Part shown: in pieces, positions 6,644 to 36,126 of the stretch
Numbering within the stretch: position 1 is the stretch's first letter
Layout of the letters: each line of letters starts with the position of its first letter
NCBI GenBank assembly: GCA_016201275.1
Contig: JACQDB010000018.1
Span: forward strand, 1 to 57,495
DNA: 57,495 nt
Reading direction: 5' to 3'
Source: Acidobacteriota bacterium
GTDB taxonomy: Bacteria; Acidobacteriota; Blastocatellia; UBA7656
The notes under the pieces: generated by a model
What the model was told of the DNA's origin: nothing
The model's database searches: none
The model's input: the letters and a program-made list of their open reading frames with translations, nothing else
Translations under genes and position numbers: made by a program

Positions 6644-9600
6644 ATGTCTAAACCCCAAAGACCCACCCATAAAGGACTCGCGTTACTGGTTCTAATTATT
6701 TTCGCTTTTGCCTGTTGGCAGACTTCAAGCTGGTCTAATTTCGCCGTACACGCGGCGGCGATTCGCGCTTCGCGTGCCAGCCTCGATGAAGCAACGGCAA
6801 TGTTTAAGGCCGACCCGACGCCCGAAACGGCGAGTCGTTTCAATGAAGCGATGAAGGATTTCGAGATCGCCGTGGCGGCTGATCCGGCATACGCAAAATC
6901 CATCGCTCCTTTAACCTTGGCACCCAGCGCGCTTCTTCAGGTGCAGATTTTACAAGCCTTCAAAGGGAGCCAGACTGCGGCACAAAAAAAGATCGGCTCG
7001 CGCCTGTTGATCGTCAGCAAGAAGAGACAAAACAAGCTGCCGCTGGGTCTTGAATCGCTGCGTACCAGTGTCGAGACAGCGGTCGGCGGCAATGCAGTGG
7101 TTGACCTCACGGTGACCAGTCGCATCGCTGGACTCAAAGCCCTAGACGCTTATCACTTCGTCATTCGTAGCGCCCTCGGCAAGACCATCCGCGCCGAGGT
7201 GCCCTTTGACAAACTCGAAGAGATTGCCGCCCTGCCTGCCATCATCTCCATACGCGAACCGAGTAGAGCCTACACCAGTCGAATGGAATCATCGGGTATG
7301 GCTTCAACCTCTGGAAGTAGGCTTGCCGTAAATACCGGTTTCAACGAGCGTGCGGTACGCGCCAAGGTTCAGTTGCAGGCGGCGCTTGCAAAGCTTGCGG
7401 TGCCAGGGTCGCCGCGCCCCATGTTCGTTGATAATGTTTCCGAAGGCGACCGGACGCATCGTGCGCTCGACGCCCGTAATGGTTTCGGTTTCACCGGCAT
7501 GGGCGTCAAGATAGGCGTCATCTCCGACGGCGTAGATACGCTTGCGACGCGGCAAGCGACAGGTGATCTGCCAGCCGTAACCGTGTTGACGGGGCAAGGC
7601 GGTTCGGGCGATGAAGGCACGGCAATGCTCGAAATCGTTCACGATCTGGCTCCGGGGGCGCAACTCTTCTTTGCCACGGCACTCCCGACCCAGGCGCAAT
7701 TTGCTCAGAACATCCGCGACTTACGCACCGCCGGTTGCGATATTATTGTGGACGACATTATTTACCTCAATGAATCTCCCTTTCACGATGGGCAGCCGAC
7801 GGGGCTCAATTCAACGATGGGGATCATCGCGCAAGCGGTCAATGATGTGACAGCGGCTGGCGCGCTCTACTTCTCGTCCGCTGGCAACGAAGGCAACAAA
7901 GACGACGACACATCAGGAACTTGGGAAGGTGACTTCAACGCCAACGGCACGCCTGCGGTGTTGGCTGGCGCTGGCCCTGTACACAACTTCGGCGATGGTG
8001 GGCAGTCTGTGCTGGTAACCTTTGGCGGCGGCAATCCGCCCCTCCTGCACTGGTCTGATCCACTGGATACGGCGGCTAACGACTATGACCTCTACGACCT
8101 GGATGGCAGTCTGACGACGATATTCGACGCTTCCACCGACACTCAGGACGGGGCGGGTGGCGACGATCAGCCGTTTGAAGGAATCTCTGGCGGGACCTTT
8201 AGCGGCGAACGTCTGGTCGTCGCGCTATTCAGTGGCGCGACGCGCTTCATCCGGCTGGAAGTATTTCGCGGGACGATTGCTCTCAACACCGCAGGCGCGA
8301 CTTATGGTCACTCCGCGACGGCCAATGCCTACAGCGTGGCAGCGACACCCGCAAGTGCGCCCTTCGGCACAGGCGAGCCATCCGGCCCGTTCCCAGGCCC
8401 TTTCACCAGCGCCAATGTGAGTGAGACCTTCAGTTGTGATGGGCCACGCCAACTCTTTTACCAAGCGGATGGCACGCTCTTTGGAGCCGGTACGCTGGCT
8501 GGACAGGGACTCATACGCCAAAAGCCTGACATCACCGCCGCTGACGGTGTGATGACAGCAGCCCCCGGCTTTAATCCGTTCTTTGGCACCTCGGCAGCCG
8601 CGCCACACGCCGCCGCCATCGCCGCGCTGGTGAAATCTGCGAATCCGATGCTGACACCGACGCAGATTCGCACTGCCTTAACTTCATCAGCAATTGACAT
8701 CGAAGGCGCAGGCGTGGACCGCGATACCGGCGCGGGCATCGTCATGGGTTTTGAAGCGCTGCAATCCATTGGCGCAACGCCGATAGCCACTCTAAATTTG
8801 GGAACCGTAACGTTCACCGAAACCGGCGGCGATGCGGATGGCTTTCTTGAACCTTGTGAGCGTGCTGATTTTACGATTGGGCTGACCAACGTCGGTGCGG
8901 CTACGGCTAGTGCGGTCTCGGCGACGCTGAGTTCGTCAACCTCCGGAGTCGTCACCAACCCGGCAGTTTCGGCTTATCCGAACATTGCCGCCAGCGCCAG
9001 CGCCAACAACCTTACGCCCTTTACCGTGGTCTTGCCTTGCACGCTGGCGTGCGGCTCAACCGTCAACTTCACCTTAACCGTAACCTACACGGGCGGCTCC
9101 AGTCCGCAAGTCTTCAATTTCAGCTACCGCCTCGGCGCTCCGGGAACGCCCGTCACCTTCAGTTATACCGGGCCTGCGGTGCCGATTCCTGATGCTACCG
9201 ATTTATCAGGAAGCAGTCCGGGAGCAGCCGTGATGGCACCACTTGTCGTCAGCGGAGTTTCGGGGCCAATCTTCGATGTGAATTTCAGTATTGATGGTTC
9301 GTCCTGCTCAACGACAGCCGGTTCAACGACGGTGGGACTGGATCACACCTTTGTCAATGACTTGAAAATCACCTTGATCTCTCCAGCCACGACCAGTGCG
9401 TTGGTCATTGACGAAACCGATGGCAGTGGCAACAACTTCTGTCAGACCGTGCTGGATGATGAATCGGTGGGCGCGTCAATTCAAACCGTCGTTTCGTCGA
9501 ATGCGCCATTCACCGGGTCGTTCAAACCGAATGCGGCACTTTCGATCTTCGATGGCCAGACCGCCAATGGCACCTGGAACCTACAGGCTCAAGACTTCTT

Positions 9601-10168
9601 TAGCGGGGACACCGGCAACATCCGTGCCTACTCCTTAATCATCACTCCGGCGGTCTGTCAAACCGCGCCTTGCGTGTTGACCTGTCCGGCCAATGTCACC
9701 GCGTCATCGGCGGTTCCGTTGGCGGTCAATTACGCCCAGCCAACCTTGACGGGTGGTTGCGGGGTCGTGACCTGTTCGCCAGCTTCGGGGGCGGTCTTCC
9801 CGGTCGGGACGACCATAGTCACCTGCACGCCACAATCCGGTTCGTCTTGTTCGTTTACGGTGACGGTCGTCATCCCCTTCGACGTGTGCATACAGGATGA
9901 CAGCAATCCCAACAACGTCTTTCTGGCGAACTCGACCACGGGAGCCTATCGCTTCTGCTGTTCGGGAACTCCCTATACCGGCATCGCGGTGGTGACCAAG
10001 AAAGGCAACGTGATAACTTTCCAGCACAACGCCGCGGATCGCCGCTTACAGGCGACGAAAGACGGAGGAACCTTCAAGGCCTCGGCCTCGCTACAGTCAC
10101 CTCCTGGAACTACCAAGTGTGCGATCATAGACAGAGACACGCGCAACAATACCTGTAGCTGTCCATGA
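6644..10168 (+). CDS. Secreted subtilisin-fold serine protease with P-domain and HYR domain
   Basis: 1174 aa, with AAAAGGAGAAAG upstream and an N-terminal signal segment (about 10-37). A prodomain-like region leads into a protease domain (about 285-690): Asp in VISDGVD (D295) and Ser in FFGTSAAAPH (S650) are clear. Where S8 enzymes have the HGT motif, this protein has GDEGTAM (E324), with a His nine residues on (IVHD, H333), as in the group often labelled S53-like. After the catalytic domain come a CARDB-like/Ig-like region (about 720-840), a proprotein-convertase P-domain (about 855-1000; FVNDLKITL and NGTWNL hallmarks), a HYR domain (about 1005-1080; CPANVT, FPVGTT) and a Cys-containing C-terminal domain. 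It probably degrades extracellular protein. It is single-gene, with its own terminator. Confidence 0.88.
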   Translation: MSKPQRPTHKGLALLVLIIFAFACWQTSSWSNFAVHAAAIRASRASLDEATAMFKADPTPETASRFNEAMKDFEIAVAADPAYAKSIAPLTLAPSALLQVQILQAFKGSQTAAQKKIGSRLLIVSKKRQNKLPLGLESLRTSVETAVGGNAVVDLTVTSRIAGLKALDAYHFVIRSALGKTIRAEVPFDKLEEIAALPAIISIREPSRAYTSRMESSGMASTSGSRLAVNTGFNERAVRAKVQLQAALAKLAVPGSPRPMFVDNVSEGDRTHRALDARNGFGFTGMGVKIGVISDGVDTLATRQATGDLPAVTVLTGQGGSGDEGTAMLEIVHDLAPGAQLFFATALPTQAQFAQNIRDLRTAGCDIIVDDIIYLNESPFHDGQPTGLNSTMGIIAQAVNDVTAAGALYFSSAGNEGNKDDDTSGTWEGDFNANGTPAVLAGAGPVHNFGDGGQSVLVTFGGGNPPLLHWSDPLDTAANDYDLYDLDGSLTTIFDASTDTQDGAGGDDQPFEGISGGTFSGERLVVALFSGATRFIRLEVFRGTIALNTAGATYGHSATANAYSVAATPASAPFGTGEPSGPFPGPFTSANVSETFSCDGPRQLFYQADGTLFGAGTLAGQGLIRQKPDITAADGVMTAAPGFNPFFGTSAAAPHAAAIAALVKSANPMLTPTQIRTALTSSAIDIEGAGVDRDTGAGIVMGFEALQSIGATPIATLNLGTVTFTETGGDADGFLEPCERADFTIGLTNVGAATASAVSATLSSSTSGVVTNPAVSAYPNIAASASANNLTPFTVVLPCTLACGSTVNFTLTVTYTGGSSPQVFNFSYRLGAPGTPVTFSYTGPAVPIPDATDLSGSSPGAAVMAPLVVSGVSGPIFDVNFSIDGSSCSTTAGSTTVGLDHTFVNDLKITLISPATTSALVIDETDGSGNNFCQTVLDDESVGASIQTVVSSNAPFTGSFKPNAALSIFDGQTANGTWNLQAQDFFSGDTGNIRAYSLIITPAVCQTAPCVLTCPANVTASSAVPLAVNYAQPTLTGGCGVVTCSPASGAVFPVGTTIVTCTPQSGSSCSFTVTVVIPFDVCIQDDSNPNNVFLANSTTGAYRFCCSGTPYTGIAVVTKKGNVITFQHNAADRRLQATKDGGTFKASASLQSPPGTTKCAIIDRDTRNNTCSCP

Positions 10169-11037: not shown

Positions 11038-14000
11038 ATGACAAAAATACTTCTTCCTGTGGTGCTTTTACTGGCGCTTGCGGTAACGGCATTGGCGCAA
11101 GGTGAGTCGGTAACTCTCTATCAAAAACCGACGCTGAACCGCACTCATATTGTATTTGTTTACGCCGGTGATTTATGGATAGTCGGGCGCGCAGGCGGCG
11201 ACGCCAAACGTCTGACCAACGGCGTCGGCACGGAAACCGATCCGGTCTTTTCGCCCGATGGCGCGACCCTTGCCTTCACCGGCGAGTACGATGGCAACGT
11301 GGATGTTTACACCGTACCGGCAAGTGGCGGCGTGCCACGTCGTTTGACTTATCATCCGGATGTGGATCGCGTCGTGGGTTGGAGCCGCGATGGCAAGCAA
11401 GTGCTGTTTGCTTCGGCGCGCCTCAGCACCTCGCGTTACAATCGCCTCTTCACCGTTGGCCTCAAGGGCGGCTTGCCCGAACCTCTGCCTTTGCCGATGG
11501 CGCAATATGGCTCCTATTCCGCCGACGGTCAGCACCTCGCTTATGAACCCTTGACCCAATGGCAGCCCGATTGGAAACGCTACAAGGGCGGCCAGACCAT
11601 GCCGATTTGGATTGCCCACCTCAGTGATTCGACCATCGAAAAATTGCCGCGTGAAAATTCCAATGACCGTTACCCCATGTGGATTGGCGATAAAATTTAT
11701 TTTCTATCGAATCGCACCGGCGCAGTCACTTTGTTTGCTTATGACACCAAAGCAAAGAAGGTCGAACAATTGATTCACAACAACGGGCTGGATTTCAAAT
11801 ACGCTTCGGCAGGCCCCGACGCGATTGCGCTGGAACAGTTCGGCACTATCAGTCTTTACGATTTGAAAACTGCCAAGACCAGCAAAGTCACTATTCGTTT
11901 AGCCAACGATTTGCTCGCCGTGCGTCCGCGTTTTGAGCGTGTTGGCAATCGCATAACCAATGCGGCGATTTCGCCGACCGGCGCACGAGCGGTCTTTGAA
12001 GCGCGTGGCGAAATCATTTCGGTTCCCGCCGAAAAAGGCGATGCGCGCAATTTGACCAACACGACAGGCGTGATGGAACGCGACCCGGCGTGGTCGCCCG
12101 ACGGCAAATGGATTGCCTATTTTTCCGATGAATCGGGCGAATACGCTTTGCATCTGCGCGATCAGAAAGGCGAAGGCGAAGTCAAAAAAATTTCCTTGCC
12201 GCCGACTTTTTACTTTTCGCCGGTCTGGTCGCCCGACAGCAAAAAGATTGCCTTGACCGATAAGAAACTCCAGCTCTGGTATCTGGACATAGACAAAGGC
12301 AGGCTCGTCAAAGTGGACAGCAACCCGATTGGCGCAAACGATGATGTGGTGCAGGCCAACTGGTCGCCCGATAGCCGTTGGATTGCCTACACAAAAAATC
12401 TGCCGAACCTGTTGCGCGCCGTCTTTATCTATTCACTCGACGCCGCCAAAGCCACGCAAATCACCGACGGCTTGAGCGATGCGCGCTATCCGGCTTTCGA
12501 TGCGAATGGCAAGTATCTTTATTTCACTGCCAGCACCAATCTCGGCCCTGCTATCAGTTTTGCAGACCTTTCTGGCATCGCGCATCAAACCACGCGCAAT
12601 GTGTATGCAGTGGTTCTCCGCAACGATATTCCTTCGCCGCTGGCACCCGAAAGCGATGAAGAAAAAGTGCAGCCGGAAAAGAAAGACGAGGCCAAACCGG
12701 CAGACAAACCCGCTGAAACCGGCGATAAAAAAGCCGACGATGCGACCGCTGATAAGAACCCGCAAGGTGCGCCTACAGCCGCCGGAGCGCCTGCTGCGCC
12801 AGCGCCTGCGGGTGCTATGCCAACGGCAAAAAAACCTGTTGAGCCAGTACGTATAGACTTTGACGCGATTGACCAACGCATCCTCGCTTTGCCGATTCCG
12901 GCGCGCAATTACATCAGCCTGCAAACTGGTCGCGCCAATAATTTTTATGTCGTCGAAGCGCCGCCGATTAGCTTTGACACCTTTGCTCCGCCATCGCTCA
13001 TCGTTCACAAATACGATCTTGATAAACGCAAATTCGATAAAGCCCTCGAAGGCGTAAGCGGTTTCACGCTTTCGGCAAACGGCGAAAAGGCTTTGTATCG
13101 TCAAGGGCCAAACTGGCTGATTGCGTCAACGGCGACGCTGGGCGCGCCTGTGCCGCCGGGCGCTCCGGGGGGGCCGAATATGCTGCGCGTCAATGAAATG
13201 GAAGTGCAGGTTGACCCCATCGCCGAATGGCGGCAGATGTACCACGAAGTGTGGCGCGGCGAACGCGATTTCTTTTACGACCCCAATGCTCACGGACTGG
13301 ATTTGAAGGCGGCGGAAAAACTCTATGAGCCGTACCTGGCGGCGGTCGCGCATCGCGCCGATTTGAATTATCTGTTCACCGAGATGCTCAATCAATTAAC
13401 CGTAGGCCATATGTTCATACGCGGCGGCGATCAAGTGCGCCCGAACTTTGTGCCGGGCGGCTTGCTCGGTTGCGATTACAAAATAGAAAACGGGCGTTAT
13501 CGTTTCGCCAAAATCTATAACGGCGAAAACTGGAATCCGCAATTGCGTGCGCCGCTGACGCAACCCGGCGTCAACGTCAAAGAGGGCGAATATCTGTTGG
13601 CCGTCAACGGGCGCAATCTGAGCGCTGACGATGATGTTTATCAGGCGTTCGAGAGCAAAGCCAATAAACAGGTGGTGATTAAAGTGGGCGCGAATCCTGA
13701 CGGCGCGGGCGCACGCGAAGTCACCGTGGTGCCTGTGGCTAGTGAAGGCGGCCTCAGAAATCTGGCGTGGATCGAAGGCAATCGCCGCAAGGTTGACCAA
13801 TTGAGCGGCGGCAGGCTGGCCTATATTTATATGCCGGACACTGCCGTTGGCGGCTACATCAGTTTCAATCGGTACTTCTTCGCGCAGACCAACAAAGAGG
13901 GCGCGGTGATGGACGAGCGTTTCAATGGTGGCGGTCTGCTTGCCGATTATGTGGTTCAACATTTGACGCGCCAGCCCTTGAGCATGATTCATTACCGCGA

Positions 14001-14676: not shown

Positions 14677-14884
14677 ATGAAAAAAGCTCTCTTGATCGTT
14701 TTACTTTTTATACTGACGGCGCTGGCCGCCTTCGCGCAAAGCGACAAGCCGACGATGTTTCGTCAACCGGCTTTGAGCAAAGATAAAATCGTTTTTGTTT
14801 ATGCGGGCGATTTGTGGATAGTCGGACGCGAAGGCGGTGCGGCTGAACGCTTGACCACGGGCATCGGCACGGAGACTTCGCCGA
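14677..14884 (+). pseudogene. Tricorn homologue 2, 5' fragment (frame lost at ~14883)
   Basis: The ATG at 14677 is 8 bases after GGAG and starts a signal peptide (MKKALLIVLLFIL...AFAQ) and the first propeller strand ending GIGTETSP. At that point the sequence jumps, relative to homologue 1, to a region about 91 codons further on and in another frame. Translation from this start would run out of frame to 15165. The fragment shares an exact 141-bp stretch (14743-14883) with homologue 3. Confidence 0.75.
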
Positions 14885-14912
14885 TTCGGCGGACGCTTCG
14901 CAGCTTGCTTAC

Positions 14913-17693
14913 GTGCCGCTGCCGCGTTCGTTCAATAACTGGAAGCGCTATCGTGGCGGCACCGCAACGCCGATCTGGATTGCCAATCTTGCCGATTCCA
15001 GCATCGAAAAAATTCCGCGTGAAAACTCCAACGACTTCAACCCGATGTGGGTCGGCAACAAAATCTATTTTCTTTCTGACCGCAACGGCGCGGTCACTTT
15101 GTTTGCTTATGACACGCAAACGAAAAAAGTTTCGCAGCTACTTAACAACACCGGCCTTGATATGAAATCGGCGTCAGCAAGCAGCGAGGCGATTGCTTAC
15201 GAGCAGTTCGGCTCAATCAATCTTTACGATTTGAAATCGGGCAAAAGTAAAAAAGTCAACATCACCTTGAATGGCGATTTGCCTTTTGTGCGCGCCCATT
15301 TTGAAAAGGTCGCGCCGCGCATCACCAACGCCGCGATTTCACCGACCGGCGCACGAGCGGTCTTTGAAGCGCGTGGCGAAATCATTTCGGTTCCCGCCGA
15401 AAAAGGCGATGCGCGCAATTTGACCAACACTTCAGGCGTCGCCGAACGCGACCCGGCGTGGTCGCCCGACGGCAAATGGATTGCCTACCTTTCGGATGAA
15501 TCGGGCGAATACGCTTTGCATCTACGCGATCAGAAAGGCGAAGGCGAAACCAAAAAAATCGCTCTGCCGCCGTCATTTTATTATTCGCCAACGTGGTCGC
15601 CCGACAGCAAAAAGATTGCCCTGTTCGATAAAAAACTCCAACTCTGGTACGTGGATATTGAAAAAGCTACGCCGATCAAAATTGATGCGACGCTGGCGGG
15701 AGCGGGAACGCTTGACCCGACCTGGTCGCCCGACAGCAAGTGGGTGGCCTATGCCAAGGCTTTGCAATCGTGGATTCGCGCCATCTTTGTTTACTCCGTC
15801 GAAGAAGGCAAGAGCTATCAAATCACCGATGGTTTGAGCGATGCGCGCTTTCCTTCATTTGATAAAAGCGGCAAGTATCTCTACTTCACCGCCTCGACCG
15901 ATACGGTGAACACTTCGGCGGGGCTTGATATGTCTTCGTATCCGTTCCGTCCGACGCGCAGCGTGTATGTATGCGTGTTGCGAAAAGATTTGTCGTCGCC
16001 GCTGGCACCGGAAAGCGATGAAGAAAAGATTCAAGAAGACAAACCCACAGAGGCCCCCAAGCCGCCGATGAAACCGCAGCCGGTGAAGGTCACGATTGAT
16101 TTTGAAAAGATTAATCAGCGCATACTGGCTTTGCCGATTCCCAATCGCAGCTACTTCGGATTGGTCGCCGGAAAAGCCAGCACCATCTACCTGGTGGAAG
16201 TTTCCCCAGCCCCCGGCACCCAAGGTGCTGCGGTGCAGAAATATGATTTGGACAAGCGCAAACTCGACAAGGTGCTGGACGGCATTCTCAGTTTTGAGGT
16301 TTCGGCAAACGGCGAAAAGGCTTTGTATCGTCAAGGGCCAAACTGGCTGATTGCGTCAACGGCAACGCTGGGCGCGCCTGTGCCGCCGGGCGCTCCGGGG
16401 GGGCCGAATATGCTGCGCGTCAATGAAATGGAAGTGCAGGTTGACCCCATCGCCGAATGGCGGCAGATGTACAAAGAGGTGTGGCGCATTGAACGCGATT
16501 TCTTTTATGCACCGAATTATCATGGCTTGAATTTGAAAGAGGCCGAAAAGAAATACGAGCCGTATCTTGGCGCGCTGGCGCATCGCGCTGATTTGAATTA
16601 TCTGTTTGGCGAGATGCTTGGCGAATTAAGCGTAGGCCACCTGTATGTGCAAGGCGGCGACACGCCGAATCCGAATCGCGTGCCGGGCGGCTTGCTCGGT
16701 TGCGATTACAAAATAGAAAACGGGCGCTATCGTTTCGCCAAAATTTACGATGGGGAAAACTGGAATCCGCAATTGCGTGCGCCGCTGACGCAACCCGGCG
16801 TCAATGTCAAAGAGGGCGAATATCTGTTGGCCGTCAATGGTCGCAATCTGACGGCAAGCGACAACGTCTATCAATTTTTTGAAAGCACGGCAGGCAAACA
16901 GGTCTTCATCAAAGTCGGAGCAAACCCCGATGCTGCCAATTCCCGCGAAGTTACCGTAGTGCCTGTGGCAAGTGAAGGCGGCCTCAGAAATCTGGCGTGG
17001 ATTGAAGACAACCGCCGCCAGGTCGAGCAGTTGAGCGGCGGCAAATTGGCTTACATATGGTTGCCCGACACCGCACAGGGCGGCTATACCAATTTCAATC
17101 GCTACTACTTCGCGCAGCTTGATAAACAGGGCGCGGTGATTGACGAGCGCTTCAACAGCGGCGGCAGTGCTGCCGATTACATCATAGATTTTTTGCGAAA
17201 GCCGATTATGAATTATTGGGCGGTGCGCGAGGGGCTGGAAGGGACTACACCATTCGGCGTCATCAACGGCCCCAAGGTCATGATAATCAATGAATATGCG
17301 GGTTCGGGCGGCGATTTGATGCCGTGGTTGTTCCGCCAAAACAAGATTGGTCCGCTCATCGGCAAACGCACTTGGGGCGGCTTGGTTGGCATTGGCGGCT
17401 ATCCGCAATTGATTGATGGCGGCCAGGTGACCGCGCCGCACTTTGCGTTTTACACCGCCGAAGGCAAGTGGGACGTTGAAAATATCGGCGTCGCCCCGGA
17501 CATCGAAATTGACCTGGACCCGAAAGCCTGGCGACAGGGACACGATGTGCAATTGGAGAAGGCCGTCGCCGAGGCGCTCGATTTATGGAAGAAGAATCCG
17601 CCGCAGCGTCCGCAACACCCGGCCTATCCCGATTATCACAAAAAGGACACACACCTGAATCCTGAGTCGGTAAACGGCAGCCGCAAAAATTGA
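14913..17693 (+). CDS. Tricorn protease homologue 2 (5'-truncated reading frame)
   Basis: Main reading frame, 926 aa from the first available start (GTG at 14913). Homology to homologue 1 extends upstream of it in this frame (SADASQLAYVPL) to the break at about 14884. It retains the propeller repeats (WSPDGKWIAYLSDE), a linker with KPPMKPQP, the S41 cap (EVWRIERDFFYAPNYHGLN), the His in SVGHLY and the nucleophile region in EYAGSGGDLMPW, so the catalytic half is complete. Without the 5' fragment it has no signal peptide and lacks part of the first propeller. Either the gene is a pseudogene or the break is an assembly error; see findings. Product and family are certain, functionality is not. 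Confidence 0.8.
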   Translation: MPLPRSFNNWKRYRGGTATPIWIANLADSSIEKIPRENSNDFNPMWVGNKIYFLSDRNGAVTLFAYDTQTKKVSQLLNNTGLDMKSASASSEAIAYEQFGSINLYDLKSGKSKKVNITLNGDLPFVRAHFEKVAPRITNAAISPTGARAVFEARGEIISVPAEKGDARNLTNTSGVAERDPAWSPDGKWIAYLSDESGEYALHLRDQKGEGETKKIALPPSFYYSPTWSPDSKKIALFDKKLQLWYVDIEKATPIKIDATLAGAGTLDPTWSPDSKWVAYAKALQSWIRAIFVYSVEEGKSYQITDGLSDARFPSFDKSGKYLYFTASTDTVNTSAGLDMSSYPFRPTRSVYVCVLRKDLSSPLAPESDEEKIQEDKPTEAPKPPMKPQPVKVTIDFEKINQRILALPIPNRSYFGLVAGKASTIYLVEVSPAPGTQGAAVQKYDLDKRKLDKVLDGILSFEVSANGEKALYRQGPNWLIASTATLGAPVPPGAPGGPNMLRVNEMEVQVDPIAEWRQMYKEVWRIERDFFYAPNYHGLNLKEAEKKYEPYLGALAHRADLNYLFGEMLGELSVGHLYVQGGDTPNPNRVPGGLLGCDYKIENGRYRFAKIYDGENWNPQLRAPLTQPGVNVKEGEYLLAVNGRNLTASDNVYQFFESTAGKQVFIKVGANPDAANSREVTVVPVASEGGLRNLAWIEDNRRQVEQLSGGKLAYIWLPDTAQGGYTNFNRYYFAQLDKQGAVIDERFNSGGSAADYIIDFLRKPIMNYWAVREGLEGTTPFGVINGPKVMIINEYAGSGGDLMPWLFRQNKIGPLIGKRTWGGLVGIGGYPQLIDGGQVTAPHFAFYTAEGKWDVENIGVAPDIEIDLDPKAWRQGHDVQLEKAVAEALDLWKKNPPQRPQHPAYPDYHKKDTHLNPESVNGSRKN

Positions 17694-17765
17694 AAGGGAG
17701 CAGAGGAGTAGGGGAGAAAGGGAGTAGGGGAGAAAGGGTGAATAATCGCCTAGCGGTATCTTGAG

Positions 17766-17923
17766 TTTAGCCGTGTCTTTTCAAGCACGGGACAAGATAC
17801 GTGATGCGAACTACGTCGCGTCAGCGACGATTGAATTACCGATGGCTGGAGAAGTCAGCCGTCGCTGACGCGACGCCCATTGTGGATTGATGTTTCGCCC
17901 GTGCCTGAAAAGACACGGCTAAA
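17766..17923. repeat. Nested inverted repeat between tricorn homologues 2 and 3
   Basis: Outer 26-bp arms (17766-17791 / 17898-17923, one mismatch; TTTAGCCGTGTCTTTTCA on the left) enclose inner perfect 16-bp arms CGTCGCGTCAGCGACG (17814-17829 / 17860-17875). The inner arm is itself partly palindromic. The rest of the 330-base gap begins with a purine-rich run (GGGAGAAAGGGAGTAGGGGAG). No gene is seen. Confidence 0.8.
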
Positions 17924-18025
17924 TTCATACGGTCGCGACGCGACTAATCATAATTCCCGGCATATCAAACAAGTGGATAATCTCCACCTGACTCTACGCC
18001 GTTTTGCTTTCATGAGGAGAAAGAA

Positions 18026-18241
18026 ATGAAAAGAGTTCTACTAATTATTCTAGTGCTGCTGGCGCTGACCGGCACGACGTTGGCGCAAAGTGACAAGCCG
18101 ACGATGTTTCGTCAACCGGCTTTGAGCAAAGATAAAATCGTTTTTGTTTATGCGGGCGATTTGTGGATAGTCGGACGCGAAGGCGGTGCGGCTGAACGCT
18201 TGACCACGGGCATCGGCACGGAGACTTCGCCGTGGATGTAG
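18026..18241 (+). pseudogene. Tricorn homologue 3, 5' fragment (stops at 18241)
   Basis: GAGGAG lies before the ATG at 18026. It encodes a signal peptide (MKRVLLIILVLLAL...LAQ) and the first propeller strand, then ends ETSPWM-stop. Compared with homologue 1 about 38 codons are missing at the junction and the frame changes. Bases 18092-18232 are identical to 14743-14883 of homologue 2, and the break falls at the end of that identity. Confidence 0.75.
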
Positions 18242-21213
18242 CCGTAGCCTGGTCGCCCGACGGGAAAAATATTTTGTTCCGTTCGGGACGCTCAAGCGGT
18301 ATGCCGGTGGCGAAACTTTTCACCATTTCGGCGGATGGCTCTTTCCCCGTCGAAGTGCCTTTGCCGATGGCGCAGGAAGGCGTTTATTCACCCGATGGAG
18401 CGCGGCTCGCTTATATGCCGCTGGCTCCGGCCTTCGCGCAGTGGAAGCGCTATCGCGGCGGACGCATGACAAAAATCTGGCTCGCCAATCTTGCCGATTC
18501 CAGCATCGAAGAGATTCCACGCACCAACGCCAACGACTTCAACCCGATGTGGGTCGGCAACAAAATCTATTTTCTCTCCGACCGCAACGGCGCGGTCACT
18601 TTGTTTGCTTACGACACCACGACCAAACGCACGACGCAATTAATCAATAACACCGGGCTGGATTTGAAATCGGCGTCGGCAAGCAGCGAGGCAATCGCTT
18701 ACGAGCAGTTCGGCTCAATCAATCTTTACGATTTGAAATCGGGCAAGACCAGCAAAGTCAACATCACTTTGAACGGCGATTTGCCTTCGGTGCGTCCGCA
18801 TTATGAGCGCGTCGCTAGTCGCATTCTCAACGCCGCGATTTCACCGACCGGCGCACGAGCGGTCTTTGAAGCGCGTGGCGAAATCATTTCGGTTCCCGCC
18901 GAAAAAGGCGATGCGCGCAATTTGACTAACACTTCGGGCGTCGCCGAACGCGACCCTGCGTGGTCGCCTGACGGCAAATGGATTGCTTACTTTTCGGATG
19001 AATCGGGGGAATACGCGCTGCATTTGAAAGAGCAATCAGGCATTGGCGAAATTAAAAAAATCAGTCTCGGCAATCCGTCGTCATATTTTTATTCGCCAAT
19101 CTTTTCGCCCGACAGCAAAAAAATTCTCTTTCAGGACAAGCGCTTGAATCTCTGGTACGTTGACATCGCTAAAGGTACGCCCGTCAAAGTTGATACCAAC
19201 ACTTATGAAAATCCGTTTCGCGTCTTTGACCCGTCATGGTCGCCCGATAGCCGTTGGATTGCTTATACCAAACAGTTGAAGAATCGTTTGTGCGCGGTCT
19301 TTCTGTACGCCCTCGAATCGGCAAAGAGCAATCAAGTCACCGACGGTTTGAGCGATGCGCGCTATGCTGGGTTCGACAAAAACGGCAAGTATGTTTACTT
19401 CGCCGCGTCAACCGATGTCGGACCGACAACCGGCTGGCTTGATATGTCGAGCTTTGCGCTGTCTTCGCAAATCACTCGCAGCGTCTATGCCATCGTCTTG
19501 AAAAAAGATCAGCCCTCGCCGCTGGCCCCGGAAAGCGACGAAGAAAAAGTGCAAGACCCGAATGCGCCGCCTGTGCCGCCAAAACCACCGGCGAAACCCG
19601 AACCCGTAACCGTCGCTGTGGATTTCGACAACATCGGCCAACGCATAGTCGCTTTGCCGATTCCGGCGCGCAACTATGTAGGCATAGCCGCAGGCAAAGC
19701 GGGGACGATTTTCTTGGCGGAAAATCCGCAAGGCGCAACCGTTCCCGGCGTCACCATTCAACGCTTCGATGTGGATAAGCGGCGCGTTGAAAAAGTGCTG
19801 GATGGCGCGACCGCGTTCACGGTTTCTGCCAACGGCGAGAAGATGCTTTTCGGGCAAGGCTTCGGCCCGGCGATGCGCTTCGTCATCGCTTCAACCGCCG
19901 CACCCCTCAAACCCGGCGAAGGCGTGTTGAATACCGGCGAGATGGAAGTTTATGTTGACCCGAAGGCCGAATGGCAGCAGATGTATCACGAAGCGTGGCG
20001 CGTGCAACGCGACTTCTTTTATGACCCAGGTTTTCACGGCCTCGACATCAAAGCCACGGAAAAGAAGTATGAGCCATTTCTTGAGAACGTCGCGCATCGC
20101 GCCGATTTGAATTATCTGTTTCAAGAGATGCTCGGCAATATGATTGTCGGTCATCACAGCTCCGTTGGCGGCGACGCGCCACAGGTGCAAGCGGTGCCGG
20201 GCGGCTTGCTCGGTTGCGATTACAAAGTTGAAAACGGGCGCTATCGCATTGCCAGAATTTTCAACGGCGAAAACTGGAATCCACAACTGCGTGCGCCGCT
20301 CACCCAACCCGGCGTTAATGTGAACGTCGGCGATTACCTGCTTGCAGTCAACGGGCGCAACTTGACGGCAAGCGATAATGTTTATCAATTCTTTTTAGAC
20401 ACGGCCAACAAACAGGTGACGATTAAAGTCGGCGCGAATCCCGATGGCACAGGCGCAAGGGAAGTCACGGTGGTGCCGGTTGGCACGGAAGGCGGCCTGA
20501 GAAATTTGGCGTGGATGGAAGACAATCGCCGCAAGGTTGACCAATTGAGCGGCGGCAAATTGGCGTATGTGTATCTGCCGAACACGGCGGGCGCGGGTTA
20601 TGCCAATTTCAATCGCTACTACTTCGCGCAGCTTGATAAACAGGGCGCGGTGATTGACGAACGCTTCAATGGCGGCGGCACGGCGGCGGACTACATCATT
20701 GACTATATGCGACGACCTTTGATGAACAAATGGGCGACCCGCGAGGGCGAAGATTTCACCACGCCCATCGGTTCGATTTACGGCCCCAAGGTCATGATGA
20801 TCAATGAATATGCGGGTTCGGGCGGCGATTTGATGCCGTGGTTATTTCGCAAAGCCGGTGTCGGGCAATTAGTCGGCAAGCGCACTTGGGGCGGACTCGT
20901 AGGTATTTACGATTACCCTGTGTTGCTTGATGGCGGCCAGGTGACTGCGCCGCGTGTGGCGTTTTACAATCTGCAAGGCCAATGGGACGTGGAAAATTAC
21001 GGCACGCCGCCGGATGTCGAAGTTGACCTTGACCCGAAACTGTGGCGACAAGGGAAAGACTCGCAACTGGAAAAAGCTGTTGAGGTGGCGTTGGCGGAAC
21101 TGAAAAAGAATCCGCCGCCGAAGTACAAAAGGCCAGCCTATCCGAATTATTACGGCGCTCCGAAAGCGCCACTGGCAGCGAGAAATTCTGCGCCCACATC
21201 GCGCAAAAAGTAA
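18232..21213 (+). CDS. Tricorn protease homologue 3 (5'-truncated reading frame)
   Basis: 993 aa from a GTG at 18232 that overlaps the end of the 5' fragment. It begins directly in a propeller blade (VDVAVAWSPDGKNILF). It keeps propeller repeats, a Pro-rich linker (APPVPPKPPAKPEP), the S41 cap (RVQRDFFYDPGFHGLD), the His in IVGHHS, a PDZ-like part and the nucleophile motif EYAGSGGDLMPW. The signal peptide is encoded only by the out-of-frame fragment upstream, so as written the protein would not be exported. Blocks are nearly identical to homologues 1 and 2, which suggests recent duplication or gene conversion. Confidence 0.8.
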   Translation: MDVAVAWSPDGKNILFRSGRSSGMPVAKLFTISADGSFPVEVPLPMAQEGVYSPDGARLAYMPLAPAFAQWKRYRGGRMTKIWLANLADSSIEEIPRTNANDFNPMWVGNKIYFLSDRNGAVTLFAYDTTTKRTTQLINNTGLDLKSASASSEAIAYEQFGSINLYDLKSGKTSKVNITLNGDLPSVRPHYERVASRILNAAISPTGARAVFEARGEIISVPAEKGDARNLTNTSGVAERDPAWSPDGKWIAYFSDESGEYALHLKEQSGIGEIKKISLGNPSSYFYSPIFSPDSKKILFQDKRLNLWYVDIAKGTPVKVDTNTYENPFRVFDPSWSPDSRWIAYTKQLKNRLCAVFLYALESAKSNQVTDGLSDARYAGFDKNGKYVYFAASTDVGPTTGWLDMSSFALSSQITRSVYAIVLKKDQPSPLAPESDEEKVQDPNAPPVPPKPPAKPEPVTVAVDFDNIGQRIVALPIPARNYVGIAAGKAGTIFLAENPQGATVPGVTIQRFDVDKRRVEKVLDGATAFTVSANGEKMLFGQGFGPAMRFVIASTAAPLKPGEGVLNTGEMEVYVDPKAEWQQMYHEAWRVQRDFFYDPGFHGLDIKATEKKYEPFLENVAHRADLNYLFQEMLGNMIVGHHSSVGGDAPQVQAVPGGLLGCDYKVENGRYRIARIFNGENWNPQLRAPLTQPGVNVNVGDYLLAVNGRNLTASDNVYQFFLDTANKQVTIKVGANPDGTGAREVTVVPVGTEGGLRNLAWMEDNRRKVDQLSGGKLAYVYLPNTAGAGYANFNRYYFAQLDKQGAVIDERFNGGGTAADYIIDYMRRPLMNKWATREGEDFTTPIGSIYGPKVMMINEYAGSGGDLMPWLFRKAGVGQLVGKRTWGGLVGIYDYPVLLDGGQVTAPRVAFYNLQGQWDVENYGTPPDVEVDLDPKLWRQGKDSQLEKAVEVALAELKKNPPPKYKRPAYPNYYGAPKAPLAARNSAPTSRKK

Positions 21214-21447: not shown

Positions 21448-22677
21448 TTAAACCGATAGTCCAGTCAGCGCAACGGTGAGCAATAACAGGCGCTTCAAAC
21501 CCAGTTCGCGGCCTGTCGGGTCGTACCATTCTGCCAGCGTATGACAATGGTTCGAGGTGCCGCCTGCGCCGATGGTAATCGCCGGAATGCCCAATGAAAT
21601 TGGGATATTGGAATCAGTCGAAGAACAATCCAGACGCGGCTCTATGCCTAAAGCGCGAGAGCATTCCATCGCCGTTTGCACGATGTGCGAAGCCACAGGG
21701 GTTTCGCCCGAAGGCCGGTCGCCTGCCGCGTCTATCGCATAGGTGAGCAGCGTACCGCTCAAGGCGCGTTGCGAATTTTCTTCGCGCACGGCCAATTCGA
21801 TCACCCGTCGCAAGTAGGCTTCGAGCTTGTCAATTTCATCGCGGGAAGTCGAGCGCATATCAACCGTCATGCTCGCCGATTCGGGAATCGAATTCACCGA
21901 TTGTCCGCCCTCGATGAGGCCTATGTTGTAAGAGGTGCGCGGCGAAATCGGCGCGGCATAGGTAGCAAAACGAGCGATGGCGCGACCGAGCGCGTGCACC
22001 GGATTGACGACGCCGAAATCGCCCCACGAATGTCCGCCGGGGCCATTGATGGTGACGCGATAACGCCGCGACCCCAAAGCGCGGCTGGTAATGCGTTCGA
22101 CGCCGGGGCCATCTAGCGAGATAAATGCCGCCGCGCCATTTTGAAATTCACCGGCGGTGAACAGATGTCGCACGCCGCGCAAATTGCCTTCGCCTTCTTC
22201 GCCGACCGTGGCGACAAAATAGATCGTCCCGGCGGTTTCAATCTGCGCCACGTTCAAGGCTTGGGCTAGGGCGATAAGGCTCATCAAACCGCAGGAATCG
22301 TCGGCAATGCCGGGCGCAAGGAAACGGCGACCATCGCGCTTGACGCGCACGTCCGTGCCTTCGGGGAAAACCGTGTCGAGGTGCGCCGAGACGATGAGAT
22401 CGGGAGTGGCCGAGGTGCCGCGCCGTTCGGCGATGACGTTGCCTTCGGCGTCGGTGTGAACCTTGGTCAAGCCGCATTCGCTAAAGCGTTGTTTGATGTA
22501 GGCGGCGCGCAATTCTTCTTTGAAAGGTGGCGCGGGAATTTCGCAGATGCGAATCAATTCGTCGGTAAAGTTGTCATTGGCTTCGACAAAAAAAGCGAAA
22601 GCCTGTTGAATCTGCGGGTAAAAGATTAAGTTTTCCGCTGTTGACTGGGCTTCGATTTTGCGTGCGTAATTTTGCAT
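21448..22677 (-). CDS. M20 family metallopeptidase (PepT-like aminopeptidase)
   Basis: 409 aa, no signal peptide, so cytosolic. Zinc ligands and catalytic residues of the M20 family are in order: SAHLDT (His, and the Asp two residues on), GIADDS (bridging Asp), GEEGEG (catalytic Glu and ligand Glu), SLDGPG (Asp) and NHCHTLAEW (His). The dimerisation lid domain starts around INGPGGHSWGDF. The IEGGQSVNSIPESASMTVDMRS block is typical of PepT-type tripeptidases and related carboxypeptidases. It would finish degradation of the small peptides made by the exported peptidases upstream. It is convergent to the tricorn genes, so separately transcribed. Exact substrate is not predictable. Confidence 0.9.
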   Translation of the reverse strand: MQNYARKIEAQSTAENLIFYPQIQQAFAFFVEANDNFTDELIRICEIPAPPFKEELRAAYIKQRFSECGLTKVHTDAEGNVIAERRGTSATPDLIVSAHLDTVFPEGTDVRVKRDGRRFLAPGIADDSCGLMSLIALAQALNVAQIETAGTIYFVATVGEEGEGNLRGVRHLFTAGEFQNGAAAFISLDGPGVERITSRALGSRRYRVTINGPGGHSWGDFGVVNPVHALGRAIARFATYAAPISPRTSYNIGLIEGGQSVNSIPESASMTVDMRSTSRDEIDKLEAYLRRVIELAVREENSQRALSGTLLTYAIDAAGDRPSGETPVASHIVQTAMECSRALGIEPRLDCSSTDSNIPISLGIPAITIGAGGTSNHCHTLAEWYDPTGRELGLKRLLLLTVALTGLSV

Positions 22678-26498: not shown

Positions 26499-26624
26499 TA
26501 TAGCGATTGGCAATTGCGTGCGTGTCAGTAGCCCGACCGTGAGGGAGGGCTTGCGTGCGAATCCAAGCCCTCCCTCACGGTCGGGCTACTGACATTGGGT
26601 CGCAACCGACTGCAAACCGCTATA
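26499..26624. repeat. Family B-like element carrying a perfect 30-bp palindrome
   Basis: The outer ends TATAGCGATTGGCA and TGCAAACCGCTATA are imperfect inverted repeats like those of the other family B copies. The cargo is different: perfect 30-bp arms (26524-26553 / 26564-26593) with a 10-base loop, containing CAGTAGCCCGACCGTGAGGG. Confidence 0.75.
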
Positions 26625-26634
26625 AGGTTGGTTT

Positions 26635-26821
26635 GCCTCTGAAAAATCTACCAATAGAGAGTCGAGGCGGTTTGGCCATTCGCCTGAATCCCCCCAACGG
26701 CAGTTGGGGGATTCGTTTATCATTGACAGCGTTTCGTAGGTTGGACTTTAACTATCCCCCGATTGCCATCGGGGGGATTGGCAAGGCTGGCTCGCCTCTG
26801 AAAAATGTACCAAGTCGAGCT
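26635..26821. repeat. Compound repeat: direct repeats flanking two G/C-tract hairpins
   Basis: GCCTCTGAAAAAT.TACCA occurs in direct orientation at 26635 and 26794. The second copy ends in AGTCGAGCT and is the reverse complement of 57465-57493. Between them lie two short hairpins with C/G runs (about 26686-26714 and 26754-26777). No gene is seen. Confidence 0.6.
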
Positions 26822-35997: not shown

Positions 35998-36126
35998 CTA
36001 GAGCGGTTTTTGTTTGAGATTACGGAAACCTCAAACCCGTTGAGCGGCGGTCTCTGACCTTCGCGCGGTCGAAGACCGCTGCTCAACGAGAGGGGGTTCC
36101 GTACACCCATATGAAAACCGCTCTAG
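35998..36126. mobile_element. Family C element with 13-bp TIRs, TA-flanked, reaching into the next gene
   Basis: The perfect 13-bp inverted ends CTAGAGCGGTTTT (35998-36010) and AAAACCGCTCTAG (36114-36126) enclose a 21-bp imperfect hairpin (36039-36059 / 36067-36087) of the GTTGAGCGGCGGTCT type. A TA sits at each end. The right end contains the ATG at 36111 used by the sterol desaturase frame. No transposase is encoded. A TATAGCAAATTTCC stretch at 35943 looks like a family B left end. Confidence 0.75.

Follow-up and report, generated by a model that had tools for sequence, protein, structure and literature searches.

Two of the three tandem tricorn-type protease genes in the window (the whole 57,495-nucleotide stretch analyzed, which is contig C77 of a 6.84 Mb assembly in 162 contigs with an estimated completeness of 98.7%) appear broken in frame, and both breaks are, with a probability of roughly 95%, errors of assembly. 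The cell probably carries the two affected genes, copy 2 (14677-17693) and copy 3 (18026-21213), at full length and with intact frames. The features concerned are listed in Table 1.

Table 1. Features of the tricorn array (positions in the window) and comparable repeat pairs on other contigs (positions in the contig named).
Feature	Position	Strand	Basis or remark
Copy 1, reference: tricorn-type protease gene, intact; called length 1172 aa	10942..14460	+	open frame; Tricorn_C1, PDZ_Tricorn, Peptidase_S41, PD40 (Pfam); 1k32 match
Copy 2, 5' part: signal peptide and propeller start, to final base of block	14677..14883	+	frame homologous to copy 1 as far as TETSP
141-bp exact block, occurrence 1; right edge at the assembler's k	14743..14883	+	repeat comparison
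Copy 2, junction read as false; ~271-274 bp missing, frame change	14883..14884	+	intact homologues; C62 anatomy alike
Copy 2, remainder, open up to stop; Tricorn_C1, PDZ, S41 domains	14884..17693	+	ORF, Pfam
Copy 3, 5' part, to final base of block	18026..18232	+	frame homology
Copy 3, apparent signal peptide	18026-18088		
141-bp exact block, occurrence 2	18092..18232	+	repeat comparison
Copy 3, junction read as false; ~118 bp missing, frame change	18232..18233	+	intact homologues
Copy 3, remainder, open up to stop; Tricorn_C1, PDZ, S41 domains	18233..21213	+	ORF, Pfam
Near-identical tract, copy 1/copy 2 (64 bp + 1 mismatch + 108 bp)	13070..13242 / 16300-16472	+	probable gene-conversion patch
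99-bp exact tract, copy 2/copy 3	15326..15424 / 18828-18926	+	copy 1 11974-12062 has 83-89 bp of it; looks like a gene-conversion patch
C62, 141-bp pair (L192)	1969-2109 / 3182-3322		gene of repeated IPT/TIG-like domains, named by sequence alone, no Pfam test
C72, 142-bp pair (L202)	18542-18683 / 19496-19637		tandem glycosyltransferase-like genes
C26, 142-bp pair (L156)	12428-12569 / 12726-12867		start of small gene duplicated, near radical-SAM-like gene

The solved tricorn of Thermoplasma acidophilum (PDB 1k32) matches copy 1 along its full length (E 5e-77) and, in keeping with a tricorn protease (MEROPS S41), the Pfam domains Tricorn_C1, PDZ_Tricorn, Peptidase_S41 and PD40 exceed the cut-off in copy 1 as well as in what follows the junctions in copies 2 and 3. 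The motifs VGH, AGSGGD and ENVGV of copy 1 align with TSH, AGSDGD and ENYGV of 1k32, and copies 2 and 3 have VGH, AGSGGD and ENIGV/ENYGT. Judged from these alignments, the predicted catalytic His, Ser and Glu, whose roles we take over from tricorn, are conserved in all three copies. The likeness to the Thermoplasma protein thus covers the propeller region, C1, PDZ and the S41-type core, with the catalytic positions kept. In contrast to it, the present genes are bacterial, have apparent signal peptides and occur in tandem, and their motifs depart from it at the residue preceding the His (GH for SH) and at the one following the Ser (SG for SD). A search of the literature on tricorn proteases in Acidobacteria found nothing relevant. 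Immediately 5' of the array (6644-10168) lies a gene for a large subtilase (S8) with a proprotein convertase P-domain, and the intergenic gap between copies 2 and 3 (17700-18010) contains short tandem GGGAGTAGGGGAGAAAG units together with AGCCGTGTCTTTTCA arms that are complementary and may form a REP-like palindrome.

As the earlier note had observed, copies 2 and 3 share a block that is identical at 141/141 bp; the match is maximal, the flanking base being different on either side. To its left, a single C/T mismatch is followed by 11 further bases that are identical or nearly so (14731-14883 vs 18080-18232, 151/153), and no further occurrence of the block was found in the rest of the genome. 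Because the two copies are otherwise 74% identical in DNA, the block is not a chance similarity. It ends on a codon boundary in both genes, 69 codons from the ATG at 14677 and likewise from that at 18026, and both the open reading frames and the comparison with homologues bear out that each gene loses its frame at the final base of the block. The homologous frame of copy 2 restarts, shifted, with base 14884 (ORF 14913-17693, 926 aa), and that of copy 3, also shifted, with base 18233 (ORF 18232-21213, 993 aa).

Measured against copy 1 and relatives, copy 2 is without 90-91 codons and one base (271-274 bp), in agreement with the deficit of about 91 codons and the change of frame first reported. 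Copy 3 is without 39 codons and one base (118 bp); here the change of frame stands, and the count of about 38 codons is to be corrected. In copy 1 and in 14 intact copies from six relatives, the distance from the end of the block to the restart point of copy 2 is 91-97 codons and that to the restart point of copy 3 is exactly 40 codons, and both missing stretches are present in 14/14 copies from the relatives. Within the same family and class, most relatives have two or three intact tandem copies. The missing stretches were not found in the rest of the binned assembly, which speaks against an assembly error, although short contigs are normally absent from bins.

A real pseudogene would be expected to bear signs of relaxed constraint, such as additional stops or frameshifts. 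No further stop or frame break follows the junctions over ~2.8 kb of copy 2 and ~3.0 kb of copy 3, and 926 and 993 codons, respectively, are free of stops. The frames flanking the breaks are directly seen to be open, and those downstream are unlike the frames of ageing pseudogenes. The reasoning of the earlier note that two independent deletions are unlikely to begin at one and the same base is sound.

The length of the block corresponds to a property of the assembly. We surveyed exact repeats in 2.15 Mb from 122 of the 162 contigs, for the most part the initial 20 kb of contigs 1-120 and of contig 162; of contigs 121-161, one stretch of C129 was covered. Repeat lengths end abruptly, with 15 pairs of 141 bp, two of 142 bp, one of 145 bp and none longer, and the pairs of 142-145 bp fit a 141-mer with chance extension. 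In 13 of the 15 pairs measuring exactly 141 bp, at least one member lies at a contig start or end; C50 start/C53 end, C34 start/C37 end and C1 start/C20 start are examples. Direct repeats in the interior of a single contig reach 117 bp and are then followed only by those of 141 bp (the tricorn block and C62) and 142 bp (C26 and C72); foreign loci were of no use as a control, having almost no long exact interior repeats. Since repeats stop at 141 bp and contig ends overlap by 141 bp, a de Bruijn assembly with a maximum k of 141 is indicated, a signature that is read directly from the contigs and that equals the length of the tricorn block. The sample shows no trace of ordinary scaffold gaps: its only runs of N, in C56 and at the C87 start, are probably sequence masked by the operators. 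Dispersed repeats of ~50 bp are also present in the window (26572-26624, 26727-26779 and 35998-36052), with exact counterparts in C19, C33, C24 and C34.

At repeats, contigs built by MEGAHIT, and also by metaSPAdes, are left with common end sequences of maxK length; in the study concerned, the list of k values for MEGAHIT tops out at 141 (PMC10914622). The present assembly resembles this description in that the shared sequence is exactly 141 bp long where a repeat begins, at contig ends throughout the genome. It differs in the tricorn array, where the 141-mer occurs twice inside one contig and the sequence downstream is missing, which points to wrong joins as well.

The same scar is directly observed in genes unrelated to tricorn. 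On C62, both copies of the repeat read ...TAATNITVVSS up to the final base of the block; the first then continues in another frame at DNLSGALSNGF, with 65 bp lost, whereas the second keeps its frame and continues at FTYIPPP, with 96 bp lost, both losses being measured against neighbouring units. This IPT/TIG-like gene is damaged by an assembly scar and has a false frameshift near 2109. On C72, gene 1 stops five codons past the block, and on C26 the two small-gene copies diverge immediately after it; these 142-bp repeats are probably scars of the same kind. Both tricorn breaks are preceded by ACTTCGCCG, unlike the C62 break, which follows TGGTGAGCAGC, and the C72 break, which follows yet another sequence. 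Because the genes are unrelated, the break sequences are unrelated and the distance from the entry of the repeat is constant, the assembler is indicated as the cause rather than biology. Given the identical anatomy on C62 together with a maximum k of 141, the right edge of the tricorn block and both deletions are almost certainly products of the assembler, and the recurrence of the scar in unrelated genes of the same genome makes it most likely that the tricorn genes are intact.

We propose that the real genome probably has three intact tandem tricorn-type genes, of which copies 2 and 3 would be truly identical near their 5' ends over at least 141 bp; we infer that this shared tract is real and extends beyond 141 bp. 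An assembler with a maximum k of 141 would enter the tract from either gene, and each path would be valid for one k-mer. With the continuation then ambiguous, each path may have resumed at a unique position further along the gene it came from, with the intervening sequence dropped. The assembler was most likely MEGAHIT, to judge by its usual top k of 141. A plain MEGAHIT unitig should not traverse one 141-mer twice, so that a later joining step or the local assembly of MEGAHIT must be invoked, which would have made the false joins. The restart points of copies 2 and 3 differ in homologous position, and the simple collapse of one repeat is therefore not the whole story. A graph shortcut through word-sharing was considered as the cause of the jumps and rejected, as no shared word is visible at the junctions.

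The three copies form a mosaic. Within genes whose proteins are otherwise ~65-70% identical, stretches of 80-173 bp match exactly or almost exactly, at silent sites too, and in the nearest relative examined an exact tract of 98 bp is likewise shared between tricorn copies. This patchy near-identity is probably real, of the ordinary kind left by gene conversion. The shared block, too, probably arose by conversion of intact sequence, and conversion between tandem paralogues would explain how the assembler came upon a 141-bp repeat at this place. A short detached fragment resembling the C-terminus of copy 3 lies near the end of C60 (~21470-21690; L044 6470-6690), 97 bp of it being exactly equal to 20992-21088 of the window; the contig ends after it, in sequence of which 138 bp are common to C86 and C110. 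The fragment is the remnant of a duplicate that has decayed, or else a further misjoin.

Of the three options that the earlier note had offered, assembly error has held up, as k can be read as 141 and the scar recurs in unrelated genes; conversion of a broken 5' end and recombination at a hot spot have not. A variant of the assembly error, unlikely but deserving some weight, is that the block is native to copy 2 alone and was put into copy 3 by the assembler, in which case the 141-bp identity itself would be false. Compared with the nearest relative examined, the block stands at 75.6% and the tail at 76.5% against the copy-2 orthologue, and the block of copy 3 stands at only 60% against a copy-3-type gene, with 74.6% for its tail; the block looks native to copy 2. 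However, a genuine conversion from copy 2 to copy 3 yields the same pattern, and the other near-identical tracts show conversion. Either way, the breaks are still to be read as artefacts.

It is very improbable that the deletions are real, one gene having been cut, its 5' end converted onto its neighbour up to the edge of the deletion and a second deletion having occurred there. The near-identical tracts in DNA of 74% identity suggest that conversion does probably occur among these genes, but this course of events requires that two deletions differing in length fall at one base and leaves unexplained both why the block length equals k = 141 and why scars of 141-142 bp are present in the unrelated C62, C72 and C26 genes. 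As a cause of the breaks, conversion of a broken 5' end is thus unsupported. If the genes were truly cut, a conversion-linked deletion process would have had to remove coding sequence repeatedly, just beyond the opening 141 bp of shared tracts and in more than one gene family of the bacterium (several in all), which we find harder still to credit. Hot-spot or site-specific recombination cutting both genes at one sequence has next to no claim, nothing having been found in its support: the sequence before the two tricorn breaks is the same, but those before the C62 and C72 scars are others, and what the scars have in common is their distance from the repeat start and not the sequence at the break.

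Reading both breaks as assembly errors keeps two genes from being listed as pseudogenes, and at least one further gene of this genome, that on C62, has been damaged likewise. The case also provides a simple check for genomes assembled from short reads, in that a frame break ending a repeat of exactly the length of the assembler's k is to be treated as an assembly error. As far as can be predicted from its genes, the bacterium would probably resemble its relatives in having tandem tricorn-type proteases, three of them and all working.
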